Origin: a virus
Virus record (IMG/VR): IMGVR_UViG_3300032322_001410
Span: 1 to 52,354 of that record
DNA length: 52,354 bases
Reading direction: 5' to 3' (one strand)
The notes beneath the pieces are model-generated. The model ran no database searches. It saw only the letters and a program-made list of their open reading frames with translations, and was not told the DNA's origin. Every line of letters starts with the position of its first letter. Positions within the stretch are counted from its first letter, which is position 1. Below, one piece after another: positions 8,690 through 51,770 of the stretch. The translations under genes and the position numbers were made by a program.

Positions 8690-8693
8690 AAGA

Positions 8694-14568: not shown

Positions 14569-14632
14569 ATTATTCCTTTAAGTTAAATGAATACATTATA
14601 ACAAAAAGAAAATAATTTTTATATGATTTTGG

Positions 14633-16135: not shown

Positions 16136-16144
16136 AATATGTAT

Positions 16145-16639: not shown

Positions 16640-16704
16640 ACAAATATTTAGTAAAAAATTGACTTTCACCCGTTTGTTGTCTAAATACAATGAAGGAGAC
16701 TTTT

Positions 16705-17025: not shown

Positions 17026-17065
17026 TATACATATAGGATCCAAAACCTACAATTATAAATACAAT

Positions 17066-17761
17066 ATGATTTTTGGATTTGATGTAATAAGTGATTTAAA
17101 TTTGGGTCCCGGTGAAGATTTTGATTGGACTGGGCAACCCACCAGCTTGTTCTGTATCATTCCCGGAAACATATCTAGTGATTTAAAAGTAATATATAAA
17201 ACACTACGTCACCTAAGTACTCTATACCACGGTGTTTTTTACATAGATGGCTCGATTGAAAACGATGACATTTATGGAAGAGATATACGTGTTAAGGAAC
17301 TTCAGAAAATTTGTACCAGCTTTAAGAATGTAATCTATCTACACAACAATGTAGTAGTAGTTGACGGGGTAGGATTAGTTGGAATAAATGGTTGGTACAA
17401 TAATTACAACAACAATAGCATTGTAGATGATTTCCATGCTAAGTGTTTTCGCTATAGCGACATTGAATACTTAGAAAAAACTATTGAAAAACTACAACTA
17501 CATCAAGATGTTAAAGCCATTATAATTGTAAGTAACTGTGTTCCCTTTAGAGAATTGTACTTCGGAGAATGTGACATGGGAGATGAAGATGTTAACCCTG
17601 GTTACGTATTGTATAAAGACACCGAACACAAAGTTAAAAAGTGGGTCTACGGAACTTATGATAAAATCGTAGACACCACCGTTAACGGCATTAATTACAT
17701 TAACAATAGTAAGTTCAACAAAAGTCCTTACTTTGCTAAAAGAATTGAAATTACCATTTAA
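17066..17761 (+). CDS. Metallophosphatase-like phage protein
   Basis: 231 residues. The frame has the rhythm of a calcineurin-like phosphatase: FGFDVISDLNL at the start (D-x-D in place of DxH), FYIDGSIEND, FKNVIYLHNNVVVVDGVGLVGINGWYNN in the middle and IIIVSNCVPF later. Several metal ligands seen in the classical family (GNH, GHxH) are replaced, so it may be a divergent or inactive member. An exact TATAAATA, the T4 late-promoter box, lies at 17054-17061, only four bases before the ATG. Its stop overlaps the stop of the convergent clpS by three bases. Confidence 0.6.
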   Translation: MIFGFDVISDLNLGPGEDFDWTGQPTSLFCIIPGNISSDLKVIYKTLRHLSTLYHGVFYIDGSIENDDIYGRDIRVKELQKICTSFKNVIYLHNNVVVVDGVGLVGINGWYNNYNNNSIVDDFHAKCFRYSDIEYLEKTIEKLQLHQDVKAIIIVSNCVPFRELYFGECDMGDEDVNPGYVLYKDTEHKVKKWVYGTYDKIVDTTVNGINYINNSKFNKSPYFAKRIEITI

Positions 17762-20640: not shown

Positions 20641-20862
20641 TTAAAATTCTTTTGGTGGTAATTGCTGTGCTTCTATGTATTTTTTCCAACGGTGAATCGC
20701 TTTACTTTTTTTGGTTTTGCGTTTGATAGTAGGTTTGACGAATTCCATGCGCTCCTTAACTTCTTGGAGAACACCCAAGTCTGTTACCTTCTTTTTGAGT
20801 TTTCTTAAAGCTTTTTCGATATTTCCATCTGTTACTAAAACTTTACGTCCTTTTATCGTCAT
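20641..20862 (-). CDS. rpsU: Ribosomal protein bS21
   Basis: 73 residues. KVLVTDGNIEKALRKLKKKV followed by a basic Arg/Lys-rich tail (KPTIKRKTKKSKAIHRWKKY) is the bS21 pattern. bS21 sits near the anti-Shine-Dalgarno end of 16S rRNA and influences start-site choice. It is the ribosomal protein most often reported from phages, where it may replace host S21 and bias ribosomes towards phage mRNA. Its ATG overlaps the clpX stop (ATGA), so the two are made from one transcript. Confidence 0.85.
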   Translation of the reverse strand: MTIKGRKVLVTDGNIEKALRKLKKKVTDLGVLQEVKERMEFVKPTIKRKTKKSKAIHRWKKYIEAQQLPPKEF

Positions 20863-22058
20863 AATAATTTTTTGGGTTCAATTACCTGCTCCTTATCTAT
20901 ATTTAGTAGTTTGATCTTATTTTTCTTATAGGTGCGGGCATGGAACATATGAATCATTAGGACTCGTTCTATTTCAGTATGGAGGCCTCTAGCCCCTGTT
21001 TTTAAATTTAGTGTGTTTTCTGCTATTTGCTCCAACGCTTCTTTTGTAAAGGTTAGTTCTATGTCATCTAGCTTGAAAAGATACTTATATTGACTAATGT
21101 AATTATTTTTTACATCTGTTAGGATTTGTATTAGTTGTTCTTTGGTTAATTCACTTATACTTACAGTAGTTGTGAATCTTCCGATAAATTCAGGAATCAT
21201 GCCAAACTTAGTCAAGTCATCCGGAGTTACTTTACTTAAATCTCCTTCTAGTTTAGTGTCTTTAATGTTTGCACTAAACCCAATACTGGTGCCAGTCAGT
21301 CTAGTACCAATTAAATCTTTTAGACCAACAAAGGCACCGCCGGCTATGAACAAAATATTTTTTGTATCAATTTCGTTAACGTCGCTACCGGGGTGCTTAC
21401 GCATACCAGATAAGGACACTCGACAAGTTGTACCTTCTACTAGCTTCAGTAAGGCTTGTTGTACTCCCTCACCACTAACATCTCTTGTGATGCTAGTGCT
21501 TTCACCTTTTCTGGCAATCTTGTCAATCTCATCAATAAAAATAATACCACGTTCTGCAAGATTTTTATCCCCGCCGGCTGCATTGACAAGCATGGTGATC
21601 ATACTTTCAACATCATCACCTACGTACCCTGCCTCAGTTAAACTTGTTGCATCCGCTACTACAAAAGGAACTTTTAAATATTTGGCAGCAGTTTTAGCAA
21701 GTAACGTTTTACCAGATCCAGTGGGACCTACAATTAGTACGTTACCTTTTTGTATATCTAAATCTTTTGGTGGATTAGTAATACGCTTGTAATGATTTGC
21801 AATTGCAACACTTAATACAGTTTTTGCGTCACTCTGACCAATCACATGTTGATCTAAATAATCCTTGATAGCTATAGGATCGTATTCAACCTGTTCTTTG
21901 GTAGAATCCTCATAATCTTCATCAATAATAAGTTCTTGACAAAGTTCAACACAGTCACTACAAATAGCGACTGCGCCTCCAACTACTAATTTCTTAACAT
22001 TGTCTTTGTGCGAACCACAAAAACTGCAATGATTAACCTGTTTAGTTTCTTCTGTCAT
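20859..22058 (-). CDS. clpX: ATP-dependent Clp protease ATP-binding subunit ClpX
   Basis: 399 residues. N-terminal zinc-binding domain with C11, C14, C33 and C36; Walker A GPTGSGKT (111-118); pore loop GYVGDDVES; Walker B IIFIDEIDKI; RKH loop (GMRKHPG); IGF tripeptide at about 255 that docks ClpX on ClpP; sensor-2 GARGL. All parts needed for unfolding and ClpP partnership are present, so it probably pairs with the phage or host ClpP. The ribosome site is weak (AAG before ATAATAAATG). Downstream it is coupled to bS21. Confidence 0.96.
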   Translation of the reverse strand: MTEETKQVNHCSFCGSHKDNVKKLVVGGAVAICSDCVELCQELIIDEDYEDSTKEQVEYDPIAIKDYLDQHVIGQSDAKTVLSVAIANHYKRITNPPKDLDIQKGNVLIVGPTGSGKTLLAKTAAKYLKVPFVVADATSLTEAGYVGDDVESMITMLVNAAGGDKNLAERGIIFIDEIDKIARKGESTSITRDVSGEGVQQALLKLVEGTTCRVSLSGMRKHPGSDVNEIDTKNILFIAGGAFVGLKDLIGTRLTGTSIGFSANIKDTKLEGDLSKVTPDDLTKFGMIPEFIGRFTTTVSISELTKEQLIQILTDVKNNYISQYKYLFKLDDIELTFTKEALEQIAENTLNLKTGARGLHTEIERVLMIHMFHARTYKKNKIKLLNIDKEQVIEPKKLL

Positions 22059-34984: not shown

Positions 34985-35395
34985 TTAACCTACCTCAGTC
35001 CTACCGTTTCCGATATCTTTGGAGTATATGGAACGCATGTTTCTATAGTCTGGGTCGGCCTCTTTTTGGTCATATAGTTCTAAAGCCACATTTCTACAGG
35101 TATTGGTAAACCAACGTTCTACTATCTCTTTATCTGTATCTGAATCTTTAAATTTATAGCCTGCCCTAATTAGGTTGATAACAAATTTTTCGTTCCAATC
35201 TAATTCAAACGCACCATCATTAATATTGTCTGGATTTATTTCAATACTAATTATGCCTACGTAAGGTTCGCCCGCTAATGTGGCTTTTTCTTTTTCAGAG
35301 AGTATCTTTTCTTTTTTTGGTTTAGGTTCTTTTTTTGGTTCTACTTTAACTGGCTCTTCAGGCTTCGCAAAGTATTTTTTTATCTTGTTTAACAT
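34985..35395 (-). CDS. Conserved phage protein (GEPYVGIISIEIN...FELDWNEKFV)
   Basis: 136 residues from ATG 35395, following GAGGAGAG. N-terminal basic Pro/Lys-rich linker (PVKVEPKKEPKPKKEKILSE) and a C-terminal domain with GEPYVGIISIEINPDNINDG, FELDWNEKFV, RWFTNTCRNVALELYDQ and DIGNGRTEV. The same block is common in cyanophage-type T4 viruses. Overlaps UvdE by 38 bases. Unknown role. Confidence 0.7.
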   Translation of the reverse strand: MLNKIKKYFAKPEEPVKVEPKKEPKPKKEKILSEKEKATLAGEPYVGIISIEINPDNINDGAFELDWNEKFVINLIRAGYKFKDSDTDKEIVERWFTNTCRNVALELYDQKEADPDYRNMRSIYSKDIGNGRTEVG

Positions 35396-36410
35396 TTTTA
35401 CTCTCCTCATATAATGCAAAGCTTGCTAGATTTTTAGCCTTGCTTTCGCACATGATATCAAATTTATTATTAAAACTCAATGCCCATTCATTACATGCCT
35501 TGTTCCAATAATAATCGCTGTGCGCTCGTAATTTTTGTTTATTAAAACCTTGTTCCTTTAATGTAACCATGCAGGGCATAGCACTAGAGTCATGTCCAAT
35601 CAGTATATCTTCTCTAGATACGGAGTAGTGCATAGCAGGACGGACACCGCGCCAGCTATCAAGAACCCGTGCAACTCGGGAATCATCAGGAGTGATATAT
35701 TCCCCCTCACGAATCCAATGATGATGAATGTCAAGTACAATAGGTAGCAGATCGCCAAGGCTGAGACAATCATCCAATCCATAACTCATCTCCTCGTTTT
35801 CGATAGTGATACCATTCCTTGCTTCAGGGCTAAGTCTTTTGTAGGCTTCTCTGATACCTTGTGGACCTTGCCTACCGCTGATGTGGACATTGATTTTAAT
35901 GTCCTGAAACGCAGAGCCGTAGCCCATCCATCTTGCCATATCCGCATGATACTCAAACTCCTCTATAGATTTATTTACTACCTCAGGACGATCACTTGCA
36001 AGAACTACAAATTGATCAGGGTGAAAACTAACACGTACATCATTACTACGGGCAGTCTCGCCTAGTGGCTTGAACCAGTGTTCAAGTTGTTTTTGAATAT
36101 CACTAGATTTCCAAAAGCCCTGCCAATCTTCATGTGTATAGAAACTTAGCATGTCACTGGTAATACGCAACATACGCAATTCGTTGGGTAGTGTGGCTAC
36201 CTTTTTGATAAGCGCATGAGTATTCATGATATTGCGTTTAGCAACATCAATGATTTTTTCTTCCGCTACTCTACGACTTTGACGATTAGCCCATGCCATA
36301 GTGGTACCGCCAGTGTTCAGTCCTTCAACGCTAGCAATCTCACCCTTTTTGTTAATCTCTGCAAACTTGCAAGCAAAGCCGATGCGATTTACATTTTGGT
36401 TAAATGTCAT
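35358..36410 (-). CDS. uvdE: UV damage endonuclease UvdE
   Basis: 350 residues. Nicks DNA 5' to UV photoproducts to start excision repair. TIM-barrel motifs: RIGFACKFAEINKKG, VRVSFHPDQFVVLASDRPE, INVHISGRQGPQGI, ITIENEEMSYGLDDCLSL, PIVLDIHHHWIREGEYI and AMHYSVSRED. The Glu/His/Asp metal ligands all appear conserved. A Mn-dependent repair enzyme suited to sunlit waters. Start ATG 36410. Confidence 0.94.
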   Translation of the reverse strand: MTFNQNVNRIGFACKFAEINKKGEIASVEGLNTGGTTMAWANRQSRRVAEEKIIDVAKRNIMNTHALIKKVATLPNELRMLRITSDMLSFYTHEDWQGFWKSSDIQKQLEHWFKPLGETARSNDVRVSFHPDQFVVLASDRPEVVNKSIEEFEYHADMARWMGYGSAFQDIKINVHISGRQGPQGIREAYKRLSPEARNGITIENEEMSYGLDDCLSLGDLLPIVLDIHHHWIREGEYITPDDSRVARVLDSWRGVRPAMHYSVSREDILIGHDSSAMPCMVTLKEQGFNKQKLRAHSDYYWNKACNEWALSFNNKFDIMCESKAKNLASFALYEESKNVKQDKKILCEA

Positions 36411-36611: not shown

Positions 36612-37439
36612 TTAATTATTGTCAATTTTTAGCAAATCCTCTAGAGAATATAGCTTATTCATGTATTTGCTAGGAGTATCCAAAACACTAGATTCCATAT
36701 CGCCCGGCCTTCTAGAACCATATTTTGTTTCAAATTTAACATTGTTTGTTTCTTTGAAAAGATTTACCATTTCTAATACAGTATGACCTTTACCATGACC
36801 CAAATGTTCGATAGAATTACTTGGCTTTTCTACTGCATACATTAAAGCAGTGCATATTTCGTTTACATGAACATAATCACGCACACAAGTGCCATCCTTT
36901 GTGTTGTAGTCATCACCAAAAATAGTAAAGTAACCAATATTGGGTGCTAACTTTAAATTGTAAAACAAACCATCAGGATTAGTGGGTTCAACAACATTAC
37001 CTCCTATGATATTAAAAAATCTGAAAATAGTATAATCAATGTTATTGCTCTTACAATGTGCTAGCACACAATCTTCTGCTGCACGTTTACTTAAACCATA
37101 TGGGCTAACCATACCCACTGCTGCACCAGTACTAGCAAAAATAAAGTTTTTTGTTTTAATTCCATTCAAAACATTTACAGTACCGTTAATGTTTGTTGTA
37201 TAATAATTACTAGGTTTATATACACTTTCACTTACATTTACTAACGCTGCAAGATGAATGACCGCATCAAATTCTATATCGATACCAATTGGCATTCTAA
37301 TATCTACATTCACAAAGTTTTTAGTTTCTATTTTTGGCTCTTGAAAATCCAAACAATACACTTCATGTTTATGTTTTTCTAACATAACCTGTAAGTGTGA
37401 GCCAATATATCCTGAACTACCTGTAATTAAAATTTTCAT
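36612..37439 (-). CDS. galE: NAD-dependent sugar-nucleotide epimerase (GalE-like)
   Basis: 275 residues. Short-chain dehydrogenase fold: GSSGYIGSH (NAD loop), VIHLAALVNVSESVYKPS, FASTGAAVG, and catalytic SPYGLSKRAAED with Y and K. CVRDYVHVNEICTALMYAVE is the usual GalE signature. Converts UDP-sugars for glycosylation. Directly after it on the transcript is a glycosyltransferase. Slightly short for GalE (about 330-340), lacking part of the C-terminal domain. Confidence 0.9.
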   Translation of the reverse strand: MKILITGSSGYIGSHLQVMLEKHKHEVYCLDFQEPKIETKNFVNVDIRMPIGIDIEFDAVIHLAALVNVSESVYKPSNYYTTNINGTVNVLNGIKTKNFIFASTGAAVGMVSPYGLSKRAAEDCVLAHCKSNNIDYTIFRFFNIIGGNVVEPTNPDGLFYNLKLAPNIGYFTIFGDDYNTKDGTCVRDYVHVNEICTALMYAVEKPSNSIEHLGHGKGHTVLEMVNLFKETNNVKFETKYGSRRPGDMESSVLDTPSKYMNKLYSLEDLLKIDNN

Positions 37440-38779
37440 TATAATCCTTCAAAAAGTACGAAAGGTTCTTCTTCCTCAATAGGAGTAAAAAGCGAATCTT
37501 TGCTTAAATATGTATTGGTATCCGTATATGTACAAGTATATTTGTGTTTATTTGCTAACACACTTTTTGTATCATCTATACAAATAACTTTTCTATTTAA
37601 ATTTGTTATATAGTCACTGTATTTTACTGTCTCACTTTGTAAAATTTTTGCCGTATTAGATTGGCTCTGTTTAGGTCTGAACCATTCAAAACATAAATTC
37701 CATTTATCAAAGACTTTTGATTCTTGTAAGTTGTTATAATGTAGAGAGCCTTTATTATACCATTCAGTCGCAGTAACAAACATATTGTATGCACCTAATA
37801 CATCTTGTGACATATCTTTTTTGTTTGTCTTAAAAAAGAACTGCCCTTCAAAATTATCTGTCCAGCGTTGGTTTTCTAAGCAGAAAGTCGGTAATTGAAT
37901 GAGTTGTTCATAAAAAGCCATACCATAACTTTCTACTGTGCTTGGATTAAATGCAACACGACAACTGGTGATGAAATCTACTTTCTCTTGTCCAATAATA
38001 CTAATTTTAATTTGATAGTCAACACCCAACTCTTTTAATCGTGCTTCAAATTTTTTAGCACCATTCGCATTGGTCATTACACGTGCCGGAAGTTTAGTTT
38101 CTTCAATGAGTTTTAAATATAGTTCTGGGTTCTTACCTTCTTCCCAACGACCAATAAACAACACACCTTCACGATCTTTATGATATTCATTTAGTAAAGC
38201 AGGTTCAGTAATGGGAATAGGCAAATGCCATGCATTCTCATCAAACTTATTACAATTAAACTCGCTTTGTGTGCCGATAGTGATGCCACCCATCTTTAAT
38301 TGCAGTCGCATCATTTCATTAACACTATTAAGAAATGGATTGTGTAATGTATTGGGGAATATTTGACTTTCTAAGTGAGTATATGCAATAACCTGTATTA
38401 CATCTTCAAGGCCCATCGTGCTTGCAACTTGTACAGTCTCATAGGTATTACAAATTAATGCATCATACAAATTATCTTCTAATGCCCTAATAATCGAATT
38501 ACGAAAGTTTGCCATTCGTTCATAGCAATAGCTATCGCCATACATAAAAATAGCACTGTGGTTTGTGTAAACATACGATTCTTCGGGATAGATAATATTG
38601 GTGTTTAGTGATTTTACAAATTCATTGTCTTGCGGTTTTTTGTCAGTAATAATATCAACTTTAACACCGTTTTCTTCCATTAGTCTAATAAAGCTTTTTG
38701 TGAACTGCCCGATACCACCATGTGGCACTAATGTTTGATAACTTACTAAAAATCCAATTCGTTTTTTATATATTTTCAT
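37439..38779 (-). CDS. Glycosyltransferase, GT-B fold (GT4-like)
   Basis: 446 residues. N-terminal Rossmann domain (FLVSYQTLVPHGGIGQFTKSFIRLM with GG loop) and C-terminal domain with VLFIGRWEEGKNPELYLKLI and NPSTVESYGMAFYEQLIQ, the donor-binding E...G...E region of GT4 enzymes. Acts with the neighbouring epimerase. Acceptor unknown: modified phage DNA, LPS or virion protein. Adjacent genes (TAATG-type joints) suggest one transcript. Confidence 0.88.
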   Translation of the reverse strand: MKIYKKRIGFLVSYQTLVPHGGIGQFTKSFIRLMEENGVKVDIITDKKPQDNEFVKSLNTNIIYPEESYVYTNHSAIFMYGDSYCYERMANFRNSIIRALEDNLYDALICNTYETVQVASTMGLEDVIQVIAYTHLESQIFPNTLHNPFLNSVNEMMRLQLKMGGITIGTQSEFNCNKFDENAWHLPIPITEPALLNEYHKDREGVLFIGRWEEGKNPELYLKLIEETKLPARVMTNANGAKKFEARLKELGVDYQIKISIIGQEKVDFITSCRVAFNPSTVESYGMAFYEQLIQLPTFCLENQRWTDNFEGQFFFKTNKKDMSQDVLGAYNMFVTATEWYNKGSLHYNNLQESKVFDKWNLCFEWFRPKQSQSNTAKILQSETVKYSDYITNLNRKVICIDDTKSVLANKHKYTCTYTDTNTYLSKDSLFTPIEEEEPFVLFEGL

Positions 38780-39020: not shown

Positions 39021-39869
39021 TTATGTTCCCCATTCGTTTTTAAAAAGTGGTACTTGTAATCTATCACTATAACGCAAACCATGTTTCATTGCAAGTTCTG
39101 CGACAGTTCTGTTGTTTAATGCATACACATTTTCAACACCACCAACGGGCATTAAGTATACATGACCACCAAACCCTTCTTTCTTATATAGTTCAATCAC
39201 TTCCAATGCTTCATCAACATCTTCTTTTGTTGCAACTACAAATTTTAGATATGTATGACCCAAATCTTCATACTCTCTAACAATATCTGGGCGAATAGCT
39301 TCTTCTCTAAGTTCACCACTAACACTTAGTTTTGGGCTGACACTGAATGTTAGATTATGATAACCCTTTTTTTGTGTCCATTTATACAAAAATAACTTAA
39401 AGTCTGGTTGAAGTTTTTGTGTTCCATTAGTTTCAAATGTAATGTCATTACATTTTTTCATTCTAGGGTTATCTAACAATTCAGGATACGCTCGTTGCCA
39501 GCCTAATAATGGTTCGCCTCCAGTAATAACTAAATGCTCATTGCGCCATTCTTTAAATGGTAATGAACCGATGATGGCTTCAACTATTACATCAATATCA
39601 TACATTGCACTAAGGTCTTTGAATGCAGGATGCCAACTTGCATAACTATCGCATCCTGTAGTTACAAGCGGTAATTCATGATAGAATTTGAATTCACTAA
39701 CTCGTTTTGCTATGTCATCAGCTTCAGTGCTACAGTTACCTTTAGGCATACCGAAGCCACTACACGTGAAATTGCAACCATAAGTACGAAGGAAGATACT
39801 AGACACCCCCATGAATCTTCCCTCACCTTGTATACTATAAAATAATTCTGCTACTTTAATTTTACTCAT
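39021..39869 (-). CDS. queE: 7-carboxy-7-deazaguanine synthase QueE (radical SAM)
   Basis: 282 residues from ATG 39869 (ATGAGTAA joint with the upstream gene). Makes CDG from 6-carboxytetrahydropterin. IQGEGRFMGVSSIFLRTYGC at the N-terminus and ITGGEPLLGWQ are typical. The Cys motif is unusual: C32-x3-C36 are normal, but the third CDSY Cys (C73) comes after a 36-residue insertion, comparable to the expanded cluster loop known in some QueE. C46 is an extra cysteine in the insertion. Acts after FolE and QueD. Confidence 0.92.
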   Translation of the reverse strand: MSKIKVAELFYSIQGEGRFMGVSSIFLRTYGCNFTCSGFGMPKGNCSTEADDIAKRVSEFKFYHELPLVTTGCDSYASWHPAFKDLSAMYDIDVIVEAIIGSLPFKEWRNEHLVITGGEPLLGWQRAYPELLDNPRMKKCNDITFETNGTQKLQPDFKLFLYKWTQKKGYHNLTFSVSPKLSVSGELREEAIRPDIVREYEDLGHTYLKFVVATKEDVDEALEVIELYKKEGFGGHVYLMPVGGVENVYALNNRTVAELAMKHGLRYSDRLQVPLFKNEWGT

Positions 39870-40140
39870 AGATTTTTGACCAAATTTTAAGTTTGTCTTT
39901 TTTGTTTTGTTTGTACGTATCAAGTCTAGATTGTTCCAATATACCTTGCTCTAGTAAAATATCAACTAATGCTAATACATCTCCGATTTCCATTTCTAGC
40001 ATTGCTCTATGAGTATGTTGCATATCTGATTTATAATGTGCCGTTTCTAAACCAAATCTACGAATCTTACTCACTTCGACAATTATTTCTGCGCATTCTT
40101 CTTGCAGTATGCCCAATGCTTCTTCTGTTTTTGAATTCAT
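39862..40140 (-). CDS. MazG-like nucleotide pyrophosphohydrolase
   Basis: 92 residues. Helical with the metal motif: ILQEECAEIIVEVSKIRRFG (EECxE) and MLEMEIGDVLALVDIL (ExxD). An all-alpha NTP-pyrophosphatase domain that may clean up non-canonical dNTPs or alarmones. Its context next to the deazaguanine genes is suggestive but not decisive. Confidence 0.72.
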   Translation of the reverse strand: MNSKTEEALGILQEECAEIIVEVSKIRRFGLETAHYKSDMQHTHRAMLEMEIGDVLALVDILLEQGILEQSRLDTYKQNKKDKLKIWSKIYE

Positions 40141-40347
40141 TTATTCACTCTCAAAATTAAAATGTTGAAGAATAATTTTGTCAAAACTACTCCAACAACC
40201 TGGTGCAGGATGACCTACAATTTTTGCACATTCATTTACAATTAATTTTGCAAATTCTATATTATATTGTTTAATCCAATTATCAACATCTAACCCTGCA
40301 GGAACTTTATTCTTTGCTTGATTTGAAAATTCTTGAATAAGATTCAT
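40141..40347 (-). CDS. Conserved small phage protein (AKLIVNECAKIV)
   Basis: 68 residues, helical (WIKQYNIEFAKLIVNECAKI, then VGHPAPGCWSSFDKIILQHF). The FAKLIVNEC and C-terminal ILQHF are a pattern seen in many phage small proteins. No function known. Confidence 0.65.
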   Translation of the reverse strand: MNLIQEFSNQAKNKVPAGLDVDNWIKQYNIEFAKLIVNECAKIVGHPAPGCWSSFDKIILQHFNFESE

Positions 40348-40355
40348 ATAATGTT

Positions 40356-40601
40356 TTAATTTTCCAGTAAAGTTTTATTTTGAATATCCCAAAAAACTTC
40401 AATAGCTGTTTTGGCATGTTCTATTGAAATATATTGACCTAAATGTTTTTCGTCATTTAGAGTAAATGTATATTGTCCAGTATATACAATGCCAAAGAAT
40501 ACTTCTTGTAAGGCAATTTTACTAGCCATGCCTACAATTTTTCCTGTAACAGCATCATAATAATAGTATCTATCAGATACACTTTTCCAATCATATTTCA
40601 T
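40356..40601 (-). CDS. Conserved small phage protein
   Basis: 81 residues. Beta-rich N-terminal half (YDWKSVSDRYYYYDAVTGKI, then VGMASKIALQEVFFGIVYTG) and a helix at the end. The YYYYDAVTGKIVG pattern recurs in T4-like phages. Overlaps queD by ATGA. Unknown function. Confidence 0.62.
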   Translation of the reverse strand: MKYDWKSVSDRYYYYDAVTGKIVGMASKIALQEVFFGIVYTGQYTFTLNDEKHLGQYISIEHAKTAIEVFWDIQNKTLLEN

Positions 40602-41113
40602 GTAAATAAGTCCTCATTCCATTCTCTGTGACCTTCTCTGAAAGCCATATTGCTTTGTGTTTCACGTACCTCTACACGATAGCACCAAAGTCTTTCTGCT
40701 TCGCCTGGCCCCCACATATCAGGAATATACACTCCATTGACATATTTGTAAAGCATATCGGCAAGACCCTCACAACCTAATCGTGGTAAAATGGTTAGTT
40801 TAGCCATTTTCTTTTCTTGCAATAATTTAAATGTTTCTAGTTCTGGGTCATCTTGTGCTACCAATAATGTATGATCAAATTGATCTTCTAGTATCTTCTT
40901 TAATTCTTTTAGACCACCATAATCAGCAGCCCAATTACGAACATCTAGATTATCAGTACCAAAATAAAACTTCATTGAAAACGAATATCCATGAATTAAG
41001 TTACAGTGACTATCGGCACGCCACTGACGATACGCACATGGAAAACTATCATGATATTCTTTGGTACTAGTATATTTGTAAACTCTAGGTGGGTAAATCT
41101 CTTTTAAGTACAT
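40598..41113 (-). CDS. queD: 6-carboxytetrahydropterin synthase QueD
   Basis: 171 residues from ATG 41113, after AAAGGAG. Converts dihydroneopterin triphosphate to 6-carboxytetrahydropterin for 7-deazaguanine synthesis. T-fold signatures: HDSFPCAYRQWRADSHCNLI (Cys 37), HGYSF, DYGGLKELKKILEDQFDHTL and the ECGLA-like GCEGLADML. The usual HGHS zinc motif reads HGYS, so the third zinc His is Tyr, a feature I recall from phage QueD. Leader TCTTGCTAATAAAGGAG resembles the dnaK and hsp20 leaders. Confidence 0.9.
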   Translation of the reverse strand: MYLKEIYPPRVYKYTSTKEYHDSFPCAYRQWRADSHCNLIHGYSFSMKFYFGTDNLDVRNWAADYGGLKELKKILEDQFDHTLLVAQDDPELETFKLLQEKKMAKLTILPRLGCEGLADMLYKYVNGVYIPDMWGPGEAERLWCYRVEVRETQSNMAFREGHREWNEDLFT

Positions 41114-41166
41114 TTTTGTCTCCTTTATTAGCAAGACATGCAGAATTTAATATAGCGGGATGAATG

Positions 41167-41376
41167 TCACAGGCCGCTTGTGCTTACTCTTTTGTTCCAA
41201 TTATTTATTGCATCGTCACCTGAAGAACCTAAAATAGATGCACTGCATCCCCCAGTTTCTTCAGCACAGTTTACTGACCATATAGTTTTTTGTTTATCGA
41301 TTGGATAAACTGTTTCATGCCATAAATCTTGTTGATTTAAATCATGTCCACAAAAAGGACAAGGTTTTAATTTCAT
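41167..41376 (-). CDS. Lar-like restriction alleviation protein
   Basis: 69 residues. KLKPCPFCGHDLNQQD at the start gives the CxxC pair, WSVNCAEETGGCSASI the second, and DDAINNWNKR the end, matching Lar-family zinc-ribbon proteins that reduce host restriction or alter its modification. Its place beside queD and near folE, queE and dpdA supports an anti-restriction role. Confidence 0.75.
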   Translation of the reverse strand: MKLKPCPFCGHDLNQQDLWHETVYPIDKQKTIWSVNCAEETGGCSASILGSSGDDAINNWNKRVSTSGL

Positions 41377-41846
41377 TGATTCAATACATTAATTATTTGG
41401 GCATCAGCTACACGTTTGCGTAAACTGCTAGAACTAAAGCTGTGGTCACGACCATTAAATATTATAGCAATGTTGCGACTCCAACAAGCTTCGTCACCAG
41501 TGAATCTTTTATCTTCATACTCAACACCTAGTATACGCACATCTAATGGCAAAATCAATAGTAAATCAATCAAATCTTGTTCAGTTTGATATACAACAAC
41601 TTCATCAACATATCGACATGCCGCTAGTTGTATTTGCCTTTCTACAATACTTTGAACAGGTTTATTTTTGGTATCTGGTCTATCAATTGTTGGGTCAGTT
41701 TGTAATCCCGCAATTAAATAATCACAATGATTTTTAGCTTCAGCAAGCATAGCAACATGTCCCGCATGAAATAAATCAAAGGTACTAAACGTGATACCTA
41801 TTTTTAATCCTTTAGCCTTTAGGTCTTTAACTTTATTGAATATCAT
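41373..41846 (-). CDS. Cytidylyltransferase-like nucleotidyltransferase
   Basis: 157 residues from ATG 41846 (M of MIFNKVKDLK). A longer frame begins at 41888. The HxGH nucleotide-binding motif is clear: FDLFHAGHVAML (H27, H30), with LKIGITFSTFD before it. SSSSLRKRV replaces the usual ISSTxIRxR. Similar to RfaE/GCT adenylyl- or cytidylyltransferases, which activate sugars or pyridine-type acceptors. It might supply a sugar-nucleotide to the glycosyltransferases nearby. Confidence 0.84.
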   Translation of the reverse strand: MIFNKVKDLKAKGLKIGITFSTFDLFHAGHVAMLAEAKNHCDYLIAGLQTDPTIDRPDTKNKPVQSIVERQIQLAACRYVDEVVVYQTEQDLIDLLLILPLDVRILGVEYEDKRFTGDEACWSRNIAIIFNGRDHSFSSSSLRKRVADAQIINVLNQ

Positions 41847-41991
41847 TTTTATCTTTTTTATCTTTTTTAAGTGGGCAATCACATTCATATCTACCTTGAT
41901 TGCAATTACCAGTACATCCAGGTATATTCATTGTAACGTATATTCCTAAGTATACAATAACTAAGCCAAGAATTATTAATACTATAGTCAT
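41833..41991 (-). CDS. Cys-rich small membrane protein
   Basis: 52 residues from ATG 41991, which overlaps the folE stop as ATGA. Membrane segment VLIILGLVIVYLGIYV, then MNIPGCTGNCNQGRYECDCP with five closely spaced cysteines, then a Lys/Asp-rich tail. The CxGxCxQGRxxCxC pattern occurs in many phage small membrane proteins. It overlaps the nucleotidyltransferase by 14 bases. Confidence 0.7.
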   Translation of the reverse strand: MTIVLIILGLVIVYLGIYVTMNIPGCTGNCNQGRYECDCPLKKDKKDKNDIQ

Positions 41992-42665
41992 TTCCCCATC
42001 CTTGCAATACTTAGAAATTCATTTCTTGCTGCTGGGTCTGTTTTAAATCCACCACCTAGTCGAACTGTCACAGTAGAACTACCTGTATCCTCTACACCAC
42101 GACTCTTAACACAATAATGTTGTGCGTCAATCATAACCGCAACATCTTCTGTTTCGAGAATGTAACATAGTGTGTGAAAAATTTGTTCAGTTAATCGTTC
42201 TTGTATCTGTGGGCGTTTGCTGAAATATTCAACAATACGATTAATCTTACTAAGACCTAATACCTTTTGCTTAGGTACATATGCAACTGTGGCAAGTCCG
42301 TCAATGATAACAAAGTGATGTTCGCAATTACTTTGTACACTTACATTGCGGTCGCACACCATTTCATTGTAATGCATTTTGTTATCAACTGTTGTACATT
42401 TAGGGAATGCCTCATAATCAAGTCCCCAAAAGATTTCATTGACATACATTTTTGCTACACGTTTTGGTGTTTCTGCTAGACTATCATCATCTAAATCAAG
42501 TCCTAGAACTTGCATGATATATTTGAAATGTTTTTCAATCTCATTGATCTTGTCTTTTCTATCCATGTTAATATTGGTAGTAGGAGTTTCAACTCCCATT
42601 TTGACAAGATATTCATGAACCTTTTTACCTAGTTCAGGGTCTGTTTTTGTTTTATTGTAACTCAT
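41988..42665 (-). CDS. folE: GTP cyclohydrolase I FolE
   Basis: 225 residues. Turns GTP into dihydroneopterin triphosphate, the first step for both folate and 7-deazaguanine. The zinc site is complete: C114 and H117 (SNCEHHF), and C185 (HYCVKSRGVED). KVLGLSKINRIVEYFSKRPQ and the C-terminal GGGFK are typical. Supplies substrate to QueD. Followed on the same transcript by the Cys-rich peptide and nucleotidyltransferase. Confidence 0.96.
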   Translation of the reverse strand: MSYNKTKTDPELGKKVHEYLVKMGVETPTTNINMDRKDKINEIEKHFKYIMQVLGLDLDDDSLAETPKRVAKMYVNEIFWGLDYEAFPKCTTVDNKMHYNEMVCDRNVSVQSNCEHHFVIIDGLATVAYVPKQKVLGLSKINRIVEYFSKRPQIQERLTEQIFHTLCYILETEDVAVMIDAQHYCVKSRGVEDTGSSTVTVRLGGGFKTDPAARNEFLSIARMGK

Positions 42666-42725
42666 CTTGATAACCCTCCGTTGTGATGGTTTGTTTTTGA
42701 AGTTTGCAACCGTTGTGTTGCATAA

Positions 42726-42932
42726 TTATTTATCTTTAGTTGTAGTCTCTGCATTTTTCTTACTGGGGAGTGGCTGGTAATCAACAAACATTCCGGTCCA
42801 CTTCCAATTAACGGGCTTCCAATATTTTGCAAACATGTTGTTAATAAAAATTACAACGATGGTCACTACGCAGAAACCCAATCCAATAAGTATTGTTTCT
42901 ACTAAAAAACTTGCTGCACTATTAATTTCCAT
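42726..42932 (-). CDS. Small membrane protein
   Basis: 68 residues with one long hydrophobic segment (about 8-32, ASFLVETILIGLGFCVVTIV then VIFINN) and a basic, Trp-rich tail (WKPVNWKWTG). One base from the next gene. Similar short proteins are frequent in T4-like phages. Unknown role. Confidence 0.6.
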   Translation of the reverse strand: MEINSAASFLVETILIGLGFCVVTIVVIFINNMFAKYWKPVNWKWTGMFVDYQPLPSKKNAETTTKDK

Positions 42933-42933
42933 T

Positions 42934-44133
42934 TTAGTATTTGCCTTCTTTTGTGTGTTTTCTATAATCCGTACTCATACGTAAATACTGTTCACCTTGC
43001 CCAGTAATCACATCACAAATACGATCAATTGTTTTATCATTATAATCACTTATTTTACCCATATTGATATGTGGGTGCTTTAGTAATTTAAACAACTTAT
43101 TTAATGCATCATGAATTGACCAAGGAATGTAAAGCCTATCGCTGTCATTAGCAAAAGTTTCAGGAAAGCTGCGATAAGCAGGATAAAGCACATTGCAGCC
43201 CAAAGTGTCTGCCTCTGATACAGTATTACTGACCCAGTCTTGTAAAGCACAGTTAAACAATACCCTAGTATCATTAAGTAAATTATAGTAATCATTTTTT
43301 TCTAAATCTTCATATACAACTAATTTGCCTTCGTCTACTAGACGCTTTGTTCTTTCCATATAACTACTATTGTTTGATTTTAATTTGCTACCACTGAATA
43401 GAGCAAATTCAATTTCATCTTGTTCGTAGCCTTCCCAATATGCCATCTTACTAAGACGATGAAATTCTTCAATCAAGTCCATATAGAAGTCAGGTTGTTT
43501 TTCTTGATCCCAACGTGCTGCGAAACCTACACGTAGTTTACGTTGATGAAAAGGTTTTAATTCTTTTACTCTACTACGAACCTCATCTTTACCAAATGCT
43601 AAACCAGAAATATTATAGATAGGAGCAGTCCATCCAGCAATACGCATATGAGCAACCATTTCCTCGTTTGAGGCGAGAACTCCGGTAACAAACTCATTGA
43701 CCATGCTTTCGTAATATCCCATCCACTTCGCCATGCCCCATACATGAACAAAGTCATCAGGATCAATGGACTGAGCAAGACACCTAACAAAAACACGGGG
43801 ACGCTTATCAGCAGGGACTTGGTTAAATATGTAAGGTAAGCTTTCGATACCGGGTTGAAACATGTCCTCAAAGTAGATAACATCCTCATTACTAATTTCT
43901 CCGTTTTTATGACAACGTACAAGATTCATCATTTGGCTCATACCAAAGTAACTACGACCATGTGCATCTAGTACTTGTCCTGTAACTATATCTTGGCTAG
44001 TCGTAAGTGTTTCACCATGCATTAAACAATAAGTAAAATTTCTTTTATCGAATACACGTTCATTCCATTCTGTTAATTGTAATGTATACCGTGCCTTGTA
44101 TGGTTCAAGGCCCATATAATACAGTTTACGCAT
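42934..44133 (-). CDS. Glycosyltransferase-like protein (GT-B)
   Basis: 399 residues from ATG 44133 (ATGCGTAA joint with upstream gene). N-terminal YYMGLEPYKARYTLQLTEWN and C-terminal LRVGFAARWDQEKQPDFYMD, NTVSEADTLGCNVLYPAYRS give a GT4-like donor domain (E...G region). Distinct from the gene at 37439. Acceptor unknown: DNA or LPS are candidates. Confidence 0.75.
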   Translation of the reverse strand: MRKLYYMGLEPYKARYTLQLTEWNERVFDKRNFTYCLMHGETLTTSQDIVTGQVLDAHGRSYFGMSQMMNLVRCHKNGEISNEDVIYFEDMFQPGIESLPYIFNQVPADKRPRVFVRCLAQSIDPDDFVHVWGMAKWMGYYESMVNEFVTGVLASNEEMVAHMRIAGWTAPIYNISGLAFGKDEVRSRVKELKPFHQRKLRVGFAARWDQEKQPDFYMDLIEEFHRLSKMAYWEGYEQDEIEFALFSGSKLKSNNSSYMERTKRLVDEGKLVVYEDLEKNDYYNLLNDTRVLFNCALQDWVSNTVSEADTLGCNVLYPAYRSFPETFANDSDRLYIPWSIHDALNKLFKLLKHPHINMGKISDYNDKTIDRICDVITGQGEQYLRMSTDYRKHTKEGKY

Positions 44134-44515
44134 CCTCTTCCCTTTTTGTAATTTCCAAATCACAATCAATGATCATTTCACAATCACTAAAAAGCCAACC
44201 ATGTTCTTCAAGGTCTAACCAACTATTACCTTCCTCAAAGAATTCTTCTAGCCAAGCTTGAGCTTCCTCGTCTACTTCATCATACTCACGTTCTTCCCAA
44301 CAACCATCGTCGGTTTCCACTAATTCAGTTTCATAACCGCAGTTATAAATATCTACACCTGCTTCAATATCAGGAGGATTATCGTCCTCAGTGTATACAA
44401 TAAATTCTCCCCAACGCCAACCAGTTTCAACAATAAGAGTATTATCGTCTTTTGTAATATGTTGACGTTCGATAATAGATTTTTTCCAAGTGGGTTTAAC
44501 TGTCCAAGTCGCCAT
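44126..44515 (-). CDS. Conserved acidic phage protein
   Basis: 129 residues. N-terminus ATWTVKPTWKKSIIERQHIT is basic; the rest is very acidic (many Asp/Glu), with GWRWGEFIVYTEDD and DEEAQAWLEEFFEEGNSWLD. This pattern is common in T4-like phages. An acidic phage protein might mimic DNA, but nothing direct supports that. Confidence 0.68.
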   Translation of the reverse strand: MATWTVKPTWKKSIIERQHITKDDNTLIVETGWRWGEFIVYTEDDNPPDIEAGVDIYNCGYETELVETDDGCWEEREYDEVDEEAQAWLEEFFEEGNSWLDLEEHGWLFSDCEMIIDCDLEITKREEDA

Positions 44516-44517
44516 AA

Positions 44518-44724
44518 TTATGCCTTTGAATCTTCTATCCAGTTGTCTTTAGGGTGTTTTCCTGCTAGCTGTTTTGTATGTTGTCTATATGCAAATTGTC
44601 GCATATCATACAAGTGTGCTTCATCAAACTTGTATCCATAGTCTACACAAAAATCCTTATATTTTTCCAGATCGTCGAAAATTTGACGTACTTTAGGGTT
44701 AGGTTGAAAATTGTATTTCTTCAT
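44518..44724 (-). CDS. Small conserved phage protein (YGYKFDEAHLYDMR)
   Basis: 68 residues from ATG 44724, with AAAGGA. The helical stretch FDDLEKYKDFCVDYGYKFDE followed by AHLYDMRQFAYRQHTKQLAG is a familiar phage pattern. Soluble, basic, unknown function. Confidence 0.66.
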   Translation of the reverse strand: MKKYNFQPNPKVRQIFDDLEKYKDFCVDYGYKFDEAHLYDMRQFAYRQHTKQLAGKHPKDNWIEDSKA

Positions 44725-44734
44725 TTTATTTCCT

Positions 44735-45169
44735 TTAAATTTCAAGTTGTTGATAAGGTTTAGTTAAATTATAATGAATTTCGCATCCGTTTTCATCATC
44801 TTCGGACACATTGATTATTACATTTCGGTTTGGATACCGATCTGCAATTCTTAAGTACAAGTCATCGGCAATCATCTCGCATGATTTGTAGTCCAATGAC
44901 AGACAATTTTGTTCCCCTGAATACAATGCTTCCAAGTATCGCTTGAACTGGATGAACTCGATATCACGGTCATTGTGGTATACGTCGATTGACACCCTGA
45001 AGTGAAAAATATGGCGATGGGGATAACCAAGAAAGCTAACATCACTGAGTTTAGGTTCTTCCAATGCTGCAGGATATTTGTGTATACCTTCTTTCTGAAA
45101 AGTAACCCATATCTGTCTTTTTGCCTCATGTTTAATTCTTTCAATTTTTTCTCGTTCACTTTGGATCAT
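44735..45169 (-). CDS. T-fold-like protein, possible QueD paralog
   Basis: 144 residues. HRHIFHFRVSIDVYHNDRDIEF, then YKSCEMIADDLYLRIADRYP (Glu after SC, like the pterin-binding PTSENIA of QueD) and VIINVSEDDENG resemble the T-fold of QueD/6-PTPS enzymes, though QueD's HGHN motif is absent. It might bind a pterin- or purine-like base. QueF is another T-fold option but its Cys/Asp motif is not seen. Placed between the deazaguanine genes and dpdA. Confidence 0.55.
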   Translation of the reverse strand: MIQSEREKIERIKHEAKRQIWVTFQKEGIHKYPAALEEPKLSDVSFLGYPHRHIFHFRVSIDVYHNDRDIEFIQFKRYLEALYSGEQNCLSLDYKSCEMIADDLYLRIADRYPNRNVIINVSEDDENGCEIHYNLTKPYQQLEI

Positions 45170-45375
45170 CTATCATCCCCGTAATCTAAATGTTCATGTT
45201 CGTATTCCCATTGCAACTTGTTTAGCCTACTTATTTCATCTTTATATTTCAGTTTTTGTTTTTTCATTTCTGAAATTTTATCCTTGTCATAGGTTGGATT
45301 TTTTTCAGCATCAGCAATTTGCTTATCTAACAAACGGTGTGTTTCGGTTAATGTTGCAATTCTATTTTTGTACAT
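45166..45375 (-). CDS. DUF465/YdcH-like small coiled-coil protein
   Basis: 69 residues. Pattern RIATLTETHRLLDKQIADAE followed by MKKQKLKYKDEISRLNKLQW matches DUF465 (LxxxHxxLDxxI...LKKxKLxLKDEI), a short helical hairpin common in bacteria with unknown role. ATGA overlap with the T-fold gene. Confidence 0.82.
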   Translation of the reverse strand: MYKNRIATLTETHRLLDKQIADAEKNPTYDKDKISEMKKQKLKYKDEISRLNKLQWEYEHEHLDYGDDR

Positions 45376-45387
45376 AAATGAACTCCT

Positions 45388-46950
45388 TTAATCAAATGAA
45401 ACAAATTGGTCAATTGTAGAATCAATAGTAGAACTTTTTTCTTTTTTAGGTTTTTGTTTTTTTGTGTTTGATATTAGATTTTGCTGAGTTTCTTCTTCAA
45501 CTAGTTTGTTATACATTGTTCTTGCATTGACCGTTTTTTTACCACTAAACCCTTGACTACCTGCCTGCATTTGTTCCCAAAGTTTGCTATACTTTTCTAC
45601 AACATCTAAACTTTCTTGTTTTGTTTTTTGAGCAAAAACTTCATTAATTATTTCTTTAAATTTTTTTTCAATAAATTTATGTCTTATCATTGCGGGTATA
45701 ATATCGTTATCATACCTTCTATTTGCTTCTTGCACCGCTGCTATATGTTGATAAACATTATGTGCTTGTATAAGTGTGTAACTTAGTGTGTCCCAACTTG
45801 TTTTTGTTTCTTTTCCATGTTGCCCAATAAAACCAACACCCCTGTAACATACGTCTTTAATCAATAGTTTATCAACAATAGGACTATTTGTAAATACATT
45901 ATGGACTTTATCGTCCAAAACAGCATCAACAAATTTCCTATTATCTATTGCATATTTTTTATCTTCTGCCGTTTTAGACATTCTATAAGACCATTTACTA
46001 TCGTGTTCAATACTTGTTTCACAATATGCAAGACCTTTTGCAGCACTGAAAAACGGACTGGCGCAATCAAATGTAATTTGTAATTTTGAGTTATGATATT
46101 TTCTAATGGCTTTTTGTATGTCTGTAAACAATACAGCATATTCCAAAATACTTACGCCCAAACAGTGAATCAAATCATGCTTGCCTTCTTGTAATAGTCC
46201 ATCATAGATAATATCAATTAATCTAATAAGTGTTAAATGTATATCAATCTTTGTTTGACCACCAAAAGCCCAACCGTTGAAATGTTTCTCAGGGTATAAA
46301 TTTGGATCACAATATTTTTTCATTTCTTCATACCATTCATAACTTTCAGTATGATTTGTTCCTTGTAGAACATTTAGAAATTTACATTTACCACTACGGT
46401 TATTAATAAAATATTCGTTATTAATATGTGTAGCAGTTATAGCATCTTGAATATTGTGAATGTTATGCAATGGTATAGCATCTGTGTTTAAGAAACTTTG
46501 ACTAGGTACATCTAAACACATACCATAATCCATGTATGTGTCCATCCATTGTAGTACAGCCTTACGTTTCTCTAACGCTTTAGGACAATTAGGATCTTTC
46601 CAATCAGCTGGCCATTGACCTTTTAAAATCTGAAATCCACCACTATCACCTAATAAGAAAGTGCCACTCTCTCTTTCATAAACAATACTCTCACTATTGC
46701 CTTGCTTTTTAGGATCAAGTTCAGCATGTCCTGCGCTATATAATGCCCACTTATATGGAAACAATGCCTTTTGACTGTTTAGAAAATTTAATGATTCTAA
46801 GTCAGAAATACCTTGAGGTATACGATCACTAGGAAAATAGTTTTCACCCTTACGTTGCTTACCCAATCCAGTAATATAAAACGTACTGAGTGCAGGTAAG
46901 AATAGTGCCCAATCGGGATTTTGTTTTTCTGTTAAATTATCTTTTTCCAT
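45388..46950 (-). CDS. dpdA: DpdA-like DNA guanine transglycosylase
   Basis: 520 residues. A tRNA-guanine-transglycosylase-fold enzyme that exchanges guanine in DNA for a 7-deazaguanine. The N-terminal catalytic Asp lies in LLGDSGGFQ (D102), followed by FGGQTKIDIH, CLGVSILEYAV and the second Asp in TFDCASPFF. Lys-rich C-terminus (TKKQKPKKEKSSTIDSTIDQ) may contact DNA. Together with folE, queD and queE it implies deazaguanine-modified phage DNA; queC is not in the window. Confidence 0.9.
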   Translation of the reverse strand: MEKDNLTEKQNPDWALFLPALSTFYITGLGKQRKGENYFPSDRIPQGISDLESLNFLNSQKALFPYKWALYSAGHAELDPKKQGNSESIVYERESGTFLLGDSGGFQILKGQWPADWKDPNCPKALEKRKAVLQWMDTYMDYGMCLDVPSQSFLNTDAIPLHNIHNIQDAITATHINNEYFINNRSGKCKFLNVLQGTNHTESYEWYEEMKKYCDPNLYPEKHFNGWAFGGQTKIDIHLTLIRLIDIIYDGLLQEGKHDLIHCLGVSILEYAVLFTDIQKAIRKYHNSKLQITFDCASPFFSAAKGLAYCETSIEHDSKWSYRMSKTAEDKKYAIDNRKFVDAVLDDKVHNVFTNSPIVDKLLIKDVCYRGVGFIGQHGKETKTSWDTLSYTLIQAHNVYQHIAAVQEANRRYDNDIIPAMIRHKFIEKKFKEIINEVFAQKTKQESLDVVEKYSKLWEQMQAGSQGFSGKKTVNARTMYNKLVEEETQQNLISNTKKQKPKKEKSSTIDSTIDQFVSFD

Positions 46951-51143: not shown

Positions 51144-51770
51144 TTAATTATACACATCACTTGTAGTAAATGCAAGTTTTTGTTTATCCAATACTAGCTT
51201 TTTAACTAGTTTTGGTAATCCTGGGTTAACATGTAAAGCATGTGGCATCAACTCATGTCTGATATAATTGCGAATGTATTTGGTATCCGTATTAGATTGG
51301 TCTTCGATCCAACCACATTCGTGTCGTTCTGCCCAATCGATTAAATCATGTTTAGTTGTAGTAAGAAATGGGCGTAATACATTGTTTCGTTGTGCAGGGA
51401 TAACTTTTGGATTACCATGCATACATGACCAAATATATGTTTCAACACAATCATCTAAATGATGCGCAGTAACAACTGGATCTTTAAACGATTCTAAAAA
51501 TTTATATCGCTCATCTCTCCAAAACTCTTGACTACTCACACCATCGGGATAATCTTTAGTAAGATGACCAACTACTAATGGCAATTCTCTAGCACTAGCA
51601 AAGTCTTGTACAAACCGATGTGCCAATTCACTTGTTTTTGTACCATGATGAAAGAATGCCAATGTGACATCGTGTTTTCTATGCAAGAAATCGGCAATGG
51701 CTACACTATCCACGCCACCGCTAAATGCGATAACTAATTTTTTGGGTAGTGGGAAGAGTAATTTGATCAT
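51144..51770 (-). CDS. tilS: TilS-like tRNA(Ile)-lysidine synthase
   Basis: 208 residues. PP-loop ATPase with SGGVDS (17-22), AHHLDDCVETYIW, RPFLTTTKHDLIDWAERHEC and IEDQSNTDTKYIRNYIRHEL, the N-terminal catalytic half of TilS. It converts the anticodon C34 of tRNA-Ile2 to lysidine for AUA reading. The C-terminal tRNA-binding domains are missing, as in shortened forms. No tRNA gene is present here, so it would act on host or distant phage tRNA. Promoter -10 ends six bases before the ATG (possible leaderless). Confidence 0.85.
   Translation of the reverse strand: MIKLLFPLPKKLVIAFSGGVDSVAIADFLHRKHDVTLAFFHHGTKTSELAHRFVQDFASARELPLVVGHLTKDYPDGVSSQEFWRDERYKFLESFKDPVVTAHHLDDCVETYIWSCMHGNPKVIPAQRNNVLRPFLTTTKHDLIDWAERHECGWIEDQSNTDTKYIRNYIRHELMPHALHVNPGLPKLVKKLVLDKQKLAFTTSDVYN
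51147..51175 (-). promoter_or_regulatory. Promoter for dsbA and DNA polymerase
   Basis: TTGCAT at 51175-51170 and TATAAT at 51152-51147, 17-base spacer, located at the 3' end of the TilS-like gene. Likely drives the dsbA-like gene and polymerase. Confidence 0.65.

Follow-up and report, generated by a model that had tools for sequence, protein, structure and literature searches.

A QueC-free gene cassette of large phages suggests an undescribed, possibly sugar-decorated 7-deazaguanine DNA base

Results

Genes of the locus

The window analyzed here is one complete virus record, IMG/VR IMGVR_UViG_3300032322_001410, which is linear, comprises 52,354 bases and is probably a fragment of a larger phage. 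Its minus strand carries genes for a 7-deazaguanine DNA-modification pathway, namely FolE, QueD, QueE and a DpdA-like transglycosylase, accompanied by a 144-aa protein with a predicted T-fold and by a GT-B glycosyltransferase (GT). On this strand, the gene of DNA polymerase B (polB) is followed in turn by those of the sliding clamp, a 130-aa protein, the DpdA-like protein, a 69-aa protein, the T-fold protein, two small proteins, the GT, a 68-aa protein, FolE, a HAGH nucleotidyltransferase, a Lar-like protein, QueD, small proteins, a MazG-like protein, QueE, an 85-aa protein, a second GT, a nucleotide-sugar epimerase, UvdE and a 5′-3′ exonuclease-like protein (Table 1). The original prediction for this region, made from the sequence without database searches, had named folE, queD, queE, dpdA, an HxGH nucleotidyltransferase, two GT-B enzymes and galE, and all of them were recovered. 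The pathway that it proposed is likewise supported by the set of FolE, QueD, QueE and DpdA-type genes. It overlooked the conserved T-fold gene, which turned out to be a specific partner of the pathway. PADLOC gave no match.

The identities of FolE, QueD and QueE are secure. The motifs of these enzymes had been described as intact, which holds for Cys27, Asp70, His71 and Glu110 of QueD (E. coli numbering), for the CX3C of QueE and for the Tgt motifs of DpdA, but not for the zinc site of QueD, in which two of the three histidines are replaced (His16 by Tyr, and HGH by HGY), nor for the third cluster cysteine of QueE, which an insertion of about 36 residues between cysteines 2 and 3 has shifted into GCDSY. 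The same QueE variant (CX3C ... GCDSY) was found in PA5oct, BUCT-ZZ01, X1 and Vibrio phage 2.275.O. The altered QueD zinc site (Tyr or Phe at position 16, and HGY) is common to BUCT-ZZ01, ACP17, phiST, phi38:2 and the 14 viral contigs examined; we rejected it as a marker of the cassette, since phi38:2, which encodes QueC, has the same change, with Phe at the first replaced position.

A divergent DpdA-like transglycosylase

The DpdA-like protein has no match in Pfam, NCBIfam or PHROG. When the profile of its family was compared with E. coli Tgt, an hhalign E-value of 2.6e-5 (probability 75%) was obtained, with DSGGFQ102-107, D147, QG197, GG, D295 and the nucleophile motif FDC in register, and the TGT residues are invariant in the family alignments. 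Even at E 10, the Pfam model PF01702 (TGT) matched nothing in the window or in nine related phages; some of these phages have a DpdA2-type enzyme, so both DpdA subfamilies lie beyond the reach of the model. Relatives of the window protein were detected by tblastn in 14 phage records, and that of PA5oct is 34% identical. The DNA polymerase B and sliding-clamp genes adjoin the dpdA locus in the window, in PA5oct and in most contigs. The protein is best described as a putative, divergent transglycosylase of the TGT superfamily, its fold being assigned by profile comparison alone. A sequence-only search for relatives of solved structure gave nothing convincing for the DpdA-like protein, the T-fold protein or the GT.

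A T-fold protein related to QueD

The 144-aa protein encoded between dpdA and the first GT belongs to phrog_17812, annotated as of "unknown function". The versions in the window and PA5oct share 54% identity, as against 34% for DpdA, and a search of an annotated phage collection found the family in 27 phage records. An AlphaFold2 model built from a 57-sequence alignment (predicted local distance difference test, pLDDT, 88.7) has the topology beta-beta-alpha-alpha-beta-beta, plus two short helices in the first loop. The best Foldseek match in the PDB was E. coli QueD (4ntk, E 4.4e-5, TMt 0.72), and all 21 matches under E 0.001 were entries of QueD or 6-pyruvoyl-tetrahydropterin synthase (PTPS). 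His30, His51 and His53 are invariant in the 57 sequences and align with His16, His31 and His33 of E. coli QueD; the substrate-anchoring Glu is also retained. In the same alignment the catalytic Cys27 of QueD is replaced by Leu, and Asp70/His71 are not conserved. The QueD family model PF01242 had no match in five T-fold members, and hhalign of the family against the single E. coli QueD sequence was not significant (E 0.14), so the kinship with QueD is carried by the fold comparison and the residue alignment. These features indicate that the protein is probably a zinc T-fold paralogue of QueD with changed chemistry. Its gene usually lies beside that of a normal QueD and does not replace it.

Linkage of the T-fold, GT and DpdA genes

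The three genes cluster in phages of the PA5oct group, in phages ACP17, X1 and BUCT-ZZ01, in hundreds of viral contigs and on Magnetospirillum chromosomes; the lineage that carries the cassette is one of large, mostly uncultured phages. The arrangement is DpdA, GT, T-fold and then QueE in PA5oct; QueD, FolE, DpdA2-type enzyme, GT, T-fold and QueE in ACP17; FolE, GT, DpdA2-type enzyme, T-fold and QueE in X1; QueE, QueD, FolE, a homologue of the second GT, DpdA2-type enzyme, T-fold and GT in BUCT-ZZ01; and T-fold, GT, FolE and QueE in Phosso, where dpdA lies elsewhere. Where a related locus extends 2.5 kb or more past dpdA, the T-fold gene was directly downstream in 59 of 59 cases and the GT was present in 54 of 59. 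Most contigs are fragments; 64 T-fold loci have 8 kb or more on each side, and their neighbors include FolE in 60 cases, the GT in 55 and a DpdA in 53.

Because these T-fold loci had been selected by the T-fold or DpdA, the linkage was retested starting from the GT alone. As a query of the annotated phage collection, the window GT matched only BUCT-ZZ01, ACP17 and X1, all of them phages with the cassette. Among the viral loci found with two GT queries, 155 of 160 also carry the T-fold or DpdA; of the other five, four are short contigs with FolE and QueE beside the GT, and one (L296) has nothing recognizable. The 80 best loci were taken per scan, which favors close relatives, the clades returned by each scan are mutually related, and the GT-started and T-fold-started sets overlap in some contigs. 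This near-exclusive linkage indicates that the GT is part of the cassette and not incidental. The suggestion in the original prediction that the glycosyltransferases might decorate the modified base has thereby gained much stronger support for the GT between FolE and the T-fold gene, which is linked in unrelated phages and, in viral contigs, occurs almost only there.

The AlphaFold2 model of this GT (pLDDT 79.9, predicted TM-score 0.82) produced 205 PDB matches with E-values of 0.001 or lower, the top ones being mainly GT4-type GT-B enzymes (GlgM, MshA, BshA, PimA, TarM); no T-even DNA glucosyltransferase was among its 50 best PDB matches. Its motifs include EKQP and, in the window and BUCT-ZZ01, D-X7-E; at the same place PA5oct, ACP17, X1, Phosso and Magnetospirillum have E-X7-E.

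In Magnetospirillum, a contiguous GT-T-fold-DpdA-QueD block is present on four chromosomal contigs (L194-L197) from three genome records. In M. aberrantis SpK (L195 8847-12905, on a 424-kb contig) a tyrosine-recombinase-like open reading frame (ORF) lies about 4 kb beyond DpdA, and the block may be a mobile island serving to mark host DNA. In Paractinoplanes ferrugineus (L199 5066-15894) the T-fold gene adjoins genes for a small protein with TGT-like features, FolE, QueD, QueE and a PfkB-like kinase, together with ORFs that by our own reading of the sequence resemble UDP-glucose pyrophosphorylase and dehydrogenase; this may be an island linking deazaguanine and sugar-nucleotide genes.

Absence of QueC

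A full-length phage-encoded QueC or Gat-QueC (PF06508) was not found in the window, as the original prediction had noted, but the absence is not merely one of the window: none was found in 52 whole records with the T-fold or GT, among them contigs of up to 417 kb and 12 isolate genomes (PA5oct, Phosso, BUCT-ZZ01, ACP17, X1, RHph_I1_18, Bakedbeans, Ahp1_CNU-2021, D479, phiST, MA9V-3 and Roos), a tally that depends on one Pfam model. As positive controls, PF06508 matched the QueC-encoding 2.275.O and GR7B with 59-204 bits and also hit 12 of 14 control genomes. FolE was found in 16 of 16 T-fold/GT genomes tested and QueD in 14 of 16. The whole lineage and its distant T-fold-bearing relatives are thus without QueC: these phages keep the genes leading to 7-carboxy-7-deazaguanine (CDG) and omit the next step. 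Since QueC is absent across the group, the expected product is not preQ0 or archaeosine. The original prediction had held that the pathway would be refuted if the genome had no queC and the host supplied none; this does not apply to the present locus, since the three enzymes FolE, QueD and QueE suffice for a 7-deazaguanine base, CDG.

Conversely, neither the T-fold gene nor the GT was found in stretches of 15-44 kb from seven QueC-encoding phages or viruses (CAjan, phi38:2, nt-1, HVTV-1, CRB2, 2.275.O and GR7B), and none of the seven turned up in the T-fold search of the phage collection. The transglycosylases cross this divide. The DpdA2-type enzyme accompanies QueC in nt-1 and the T-fold and GT in ACP17, X1 and BUCT-ZZ01, and the subfamily of the window enzyme accompanies QueC in 2.275.O and GR7B and the T-fold and GT in PA5oct. 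Therefore, the transglycosylase appears to be shared, and the tailoring module swapped (QueC versus T-fold with or without GT).

A TilS-like PP-loop protein encoded upstream of polB was considered as a substitute for QueC and rejected, as it scores 115 bits with the NCBIfam model of TilS (cut-off 93.6) and belongs to PF01171, not PF06508. No counterpart of it was found at the loci of PA5oct, Phosso, 2.275.O and GR7B. This 208-aa stand-alone TilS N-domain protein (window 51144-51770, minus strand) lacks the C-terminal TilS domains and is present in about half of the related contigs; no tRNA gene was found in the window.

Accessory genes and neighbors

The Lar-like and MazG-like proteins named in the original prediction are recognizable, but both fall just under the curated cut-offs, the former with 28.1 against 28.6 bits (PF14354) and 35.8 against 39.6 bits (TIGR03655). 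A Lar-like gene was present in 3 of 84 related loci and a MazG-like gene in 1 of 84 (26 of the 84 reach queE). Being so rare, they are accessory; we rejected them as parts of the system, and the proposal of several anti-restriction layers is left weak. The HAGH nucleotidyltransferase, present in 38 of the 47 related loci that include FolE, could provide a clade-specific supply of sugar nucleotide, and the GalE-like epimerase could likewise supply the sugar donor. The second GT occurs in 13 of the 26 related loci reaching queE; its homologue in Synechococcus phage BUCT-ZZ01 (39% identity) sits between folE and dpdA.

One related contig (L004) has further insertions: a nucleotidyltransferase-cupin ORF between the T-fold gene and the GT (8596-9342) and, between queD and queE (14264-17240), ORFs for a Rieske-type oxygenase, an aspartyl-hydroxylase-like protein and a 434-aa unknown protein; the names cupin, Rieske-type oxygenase and aspartyl-hydroxylase come from reading the sequence. 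The window also encodes, on the minus strand, a full-length Hsp70/DnaK (18635-20530, 865 bits) and a ClpX-like AAA protein with a zinc finger (20859-22058). In PA5oct, genes annotated as ClpX, ClpS and heat-shock protein adjoin folE and queD, and an annotated homing-endonuclease ORF interrupts the DNA polymerase gene (L001 5605-10831).

Table 1. Features of the modification locus and its neighborhood in the window
Feature	Position	Strand	Evidence
DpdA-like transglycosylase (TGT superfamily, putative), 520 aa, divergent subfamily	45388..46950	-	hhalign to E. coli Tgt, tblastn relatives
QueD-like T-fold protein (predicted), 144 aa, phrog_17812	44735..45169	-	AlphaFold2, Foldseek, conservation
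GT-B glycosyltransferase (GT4-like), 399 aa from ATG at 44133	42934..44133	-	AlphaFold2, Foldseek, motifs, linkage
FolE, GTP cyclohydrolase I	41988..42665	-	NCBIfam 325 bits, cut-off 202
HAGH nucleotidyltransferase (HldE domain II / TagD-like)	41373..41888	-	TIGR02199 3.6e-21, under its own cut-off
Lar-like zinc-ribbon protein	41167..41376	-	just below curated cut-offs
QueD (6-carboxytetrahydropterin synthase), altered zinc site	40598..41134	-	PF01242 PTPS 58 bits, cut-off 22; 9.6e-16; phrog_2389 8e-37
MazG-like protein	39862..40140	-	phrog_4856 2e-16; 18.9 bits, cut-off 22
QueE radical SAM enzyme (CDG synthase)	39021..39923	-	phrog_2076 2.8e-52; alignment
Second glycosyltransferase (GT-B-like, GT4-like, E-X7-E)	37439..38779	-	weak PF00534; 39% to BUCT-ZZ01 homologue
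NAD-dependent nucleotide-sugar epimerase (GalE-like)	36612..37439	-	PF01370 4.9e-34; phrog_540
UvdE-family UV endonuclease, downstream of epimerase	35358..36410	-	PF03851 128 bits

Discussion

A possible QueC-independent branch

FolE, QueD and QueE yield CDG, and enzymes of the DpdA type introduce 7-deazaguanines in DNA, base exchange being the most likely mechanism (PMC6884629, PMC13329287). According to Hutinet et al. (2019), phage Bipper lacks only QueC and has been suggested to carry CDG (PMC6884629). From gene content, order and linkage, the absence of QueC, predicted folds and conserved residues, evidence that is genomic and based on structure prediction throughout, we lean slightly toward a QueC-independent branch of phage 7-deazaguanine DNA modification in which the T-fold protein works on CDG, DpdA places the base in DNA and the GT attaches a sugar. 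FolE, QueD and QueE would produce CDG, as expected from their families, and the pathway would branch at this compound. The T-fold protein, with its zinc site intact and without the Cys and Asp-His machinery, would act in place of QueC on CDG or its product, decarboxylation to 7-deazaguanine being the simplest option. DpdA, judging from its Tgt-like active-site residues, would then swap guanine in DNA for the resulting base, and the GT-B enzyme, as its linkage and fold suggest, would add a sugar from a host or phage sugar nucleotide, before or after insertion. The outcome would be a bulky guanine replacement that shields phage DNA from restriction. A wider claim is held more tentatively, a little short of an even chance: glycosylated 7-deazaguanine would be made in the DNA of phages with many different hosts, and in some Magnetospirillum chromosomes, by way of this QueC-free branch, with a zinc T-fold protein remodeling CDG and a GT-B enzyme adding the sugar.

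Several points weigh against this interpretation. At least six phages with the T-fold gene (RHph_I1_18, Bakedbeans, Ahp1, D479, phiST and MA9V-3) show no such GT beside it, therefore the GT is not obligatory. Some cassettes have no DpdA nearby, and for these no transglycosylase was identified. Weak partial matches to PF06508 were obtained in three records, with 32.8 (D479), 25.7 and 25.4 bits. In the accessible literature we found no nucleoside chemistry for any cassette phage, and the literature searched contained no description of glycosylated deazaguanine DNA or of a modification in PA5oct. The weakest mechanistic step is the acceptor chemistry, as plain 7-deazaguanine offers no obvious hydroxyl or amine at C7 as sugar acceptor. 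With only H at C7 after decarboxylation, the GT would need to form a C-glycoside, which is unusual chemistry, or to use another atom; if the carboxyl were kept, as in CDG, a glycosyl ester or amide would be possible.

To judge from phiST, MA9V-3, Ahp1 and RHph_I1_18, which have the T-fold gene and lack the GT, the T-fold step may suffice as a route, with the GT supplying an additional decoration. These phages also show that the T-fold product can be an end product, which favors a plainer reading in which the T-fold protein is a CDG decarboxylase, the DNA contains dDG or dCDG, and the GT acts elsewhere, on the host surface, a virion protein or a small molecule. Such exclusivity would be unexpected of a surface or virion GT, however: this family is almost never seen away from the cassette (155 of the 160 GT loci), and the bacterial chromosomal block includes it. 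We consider this reading rather unlikely, although it deserves more weight than the remaining ones. A host enzyme might instead complete the pathway, giving dPreQ0 (or dADG) as in CAjan or Rosebush, with the T-fold protein as a second QueD and the GT incidental. QueC is indeed common in bacteria, as the control genomes show, and some phages may use host precursors (PMC6884629); but QueC-encoding phages bring QueC along with FolE, QueD and QueE, whereas none of the 52 T-fold/GT records has it in full length, the T-fold protein lacks the catalytic residues of QueD and sits beside a canonical QueD, and the linkage of the GT is near-exclusive, all of which makes a host contribution of this kind improbable. 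It would be more surprising still if these genes did not modify phage DNA, with FolE, QueD and QueE supplying the queuosine or pterin pools of the host and with an inactive or RNA-directed DpdA-like protein. The window subfamily has no Pfam TGT match and we know of no biochemical characterization of it, yet it retains the Tgt catalytic motifs, its gene adjoins those of DNA polymerase B and the sliding clamp, as noted above, and the genes have been conserved together over the long term.

If the proposed glycosylated branch exists, a widespread guanine-based sugar modification would be a chemically new class of block against restriction, and perhaps against CRISPR, and it would explain the many phages with queE but without queC. 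It would also provide a candidate function for phrog_17812 and for a GT family seen almost only in the context of the cassette. The T-fold protein may correspond to the DpdL family of Cui et al. from 2023, who reportedly described dCDG and dDG and are said to have predicted DpdL as a decarboxylase; if so, the T-fold half has already been named, and the new part is the near-exclusive link to the GT family. The prediction is directly testable because the Pseudomonas aeruginosa phages PA5oct and Paride, together with ACP17, X1, BUCT-ZZ01 and Phosso, are cultured isolates.

Comparison with known systems

The phage preQ0/archaeosine modification (FolE-QueD-QueE-QueC-DpdA; PMC6884629) uses the same FolE, QueD, QueE and TGT-superfamily enzyme, the DpdA2 type being common to nt-1, ACP17, X1 and BUCT-ZZ01. 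In the group described here, by contrast, QueC and the amidotransferase are absent, and the T-fold and GT-B genes occupy the neighborhood instead. The likeness to the phage dCDG/dDG modification is that a QueC-less end product derived from CDG is expected; we know of no linked glycosyltransferase described for it. With QueD and PTPS, the predicted T-fold protein has in common the fold, the zinc His triad and the anchoring Glu, but Cys27 is replaced by Leu, Asp70/His71 are not conserved and a separate QueD co-occurs. Mannosyl- and galactosyl-queuosine are tRNA 7-deazaguanines that carry a glycosyltransferase-added sugar on the cyclopentenediol; they differ in residing in tRNA, not DNA, and their cyclopentenediol cannot form without preQ1 and QueA. 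To our knowledge, the known sugar-decorated phage bases are all pyrimidines. In the glucosyl-hydroxymethylcytosine system of the T-even phages the base is modified first and a phage GT-B enzyme then adds the sugar; the same logic would apply to the cassette, but to a guanine replacement, not cytosine, and with a GT that is closest to the GT4-type (retaining) GT-B enzymes.

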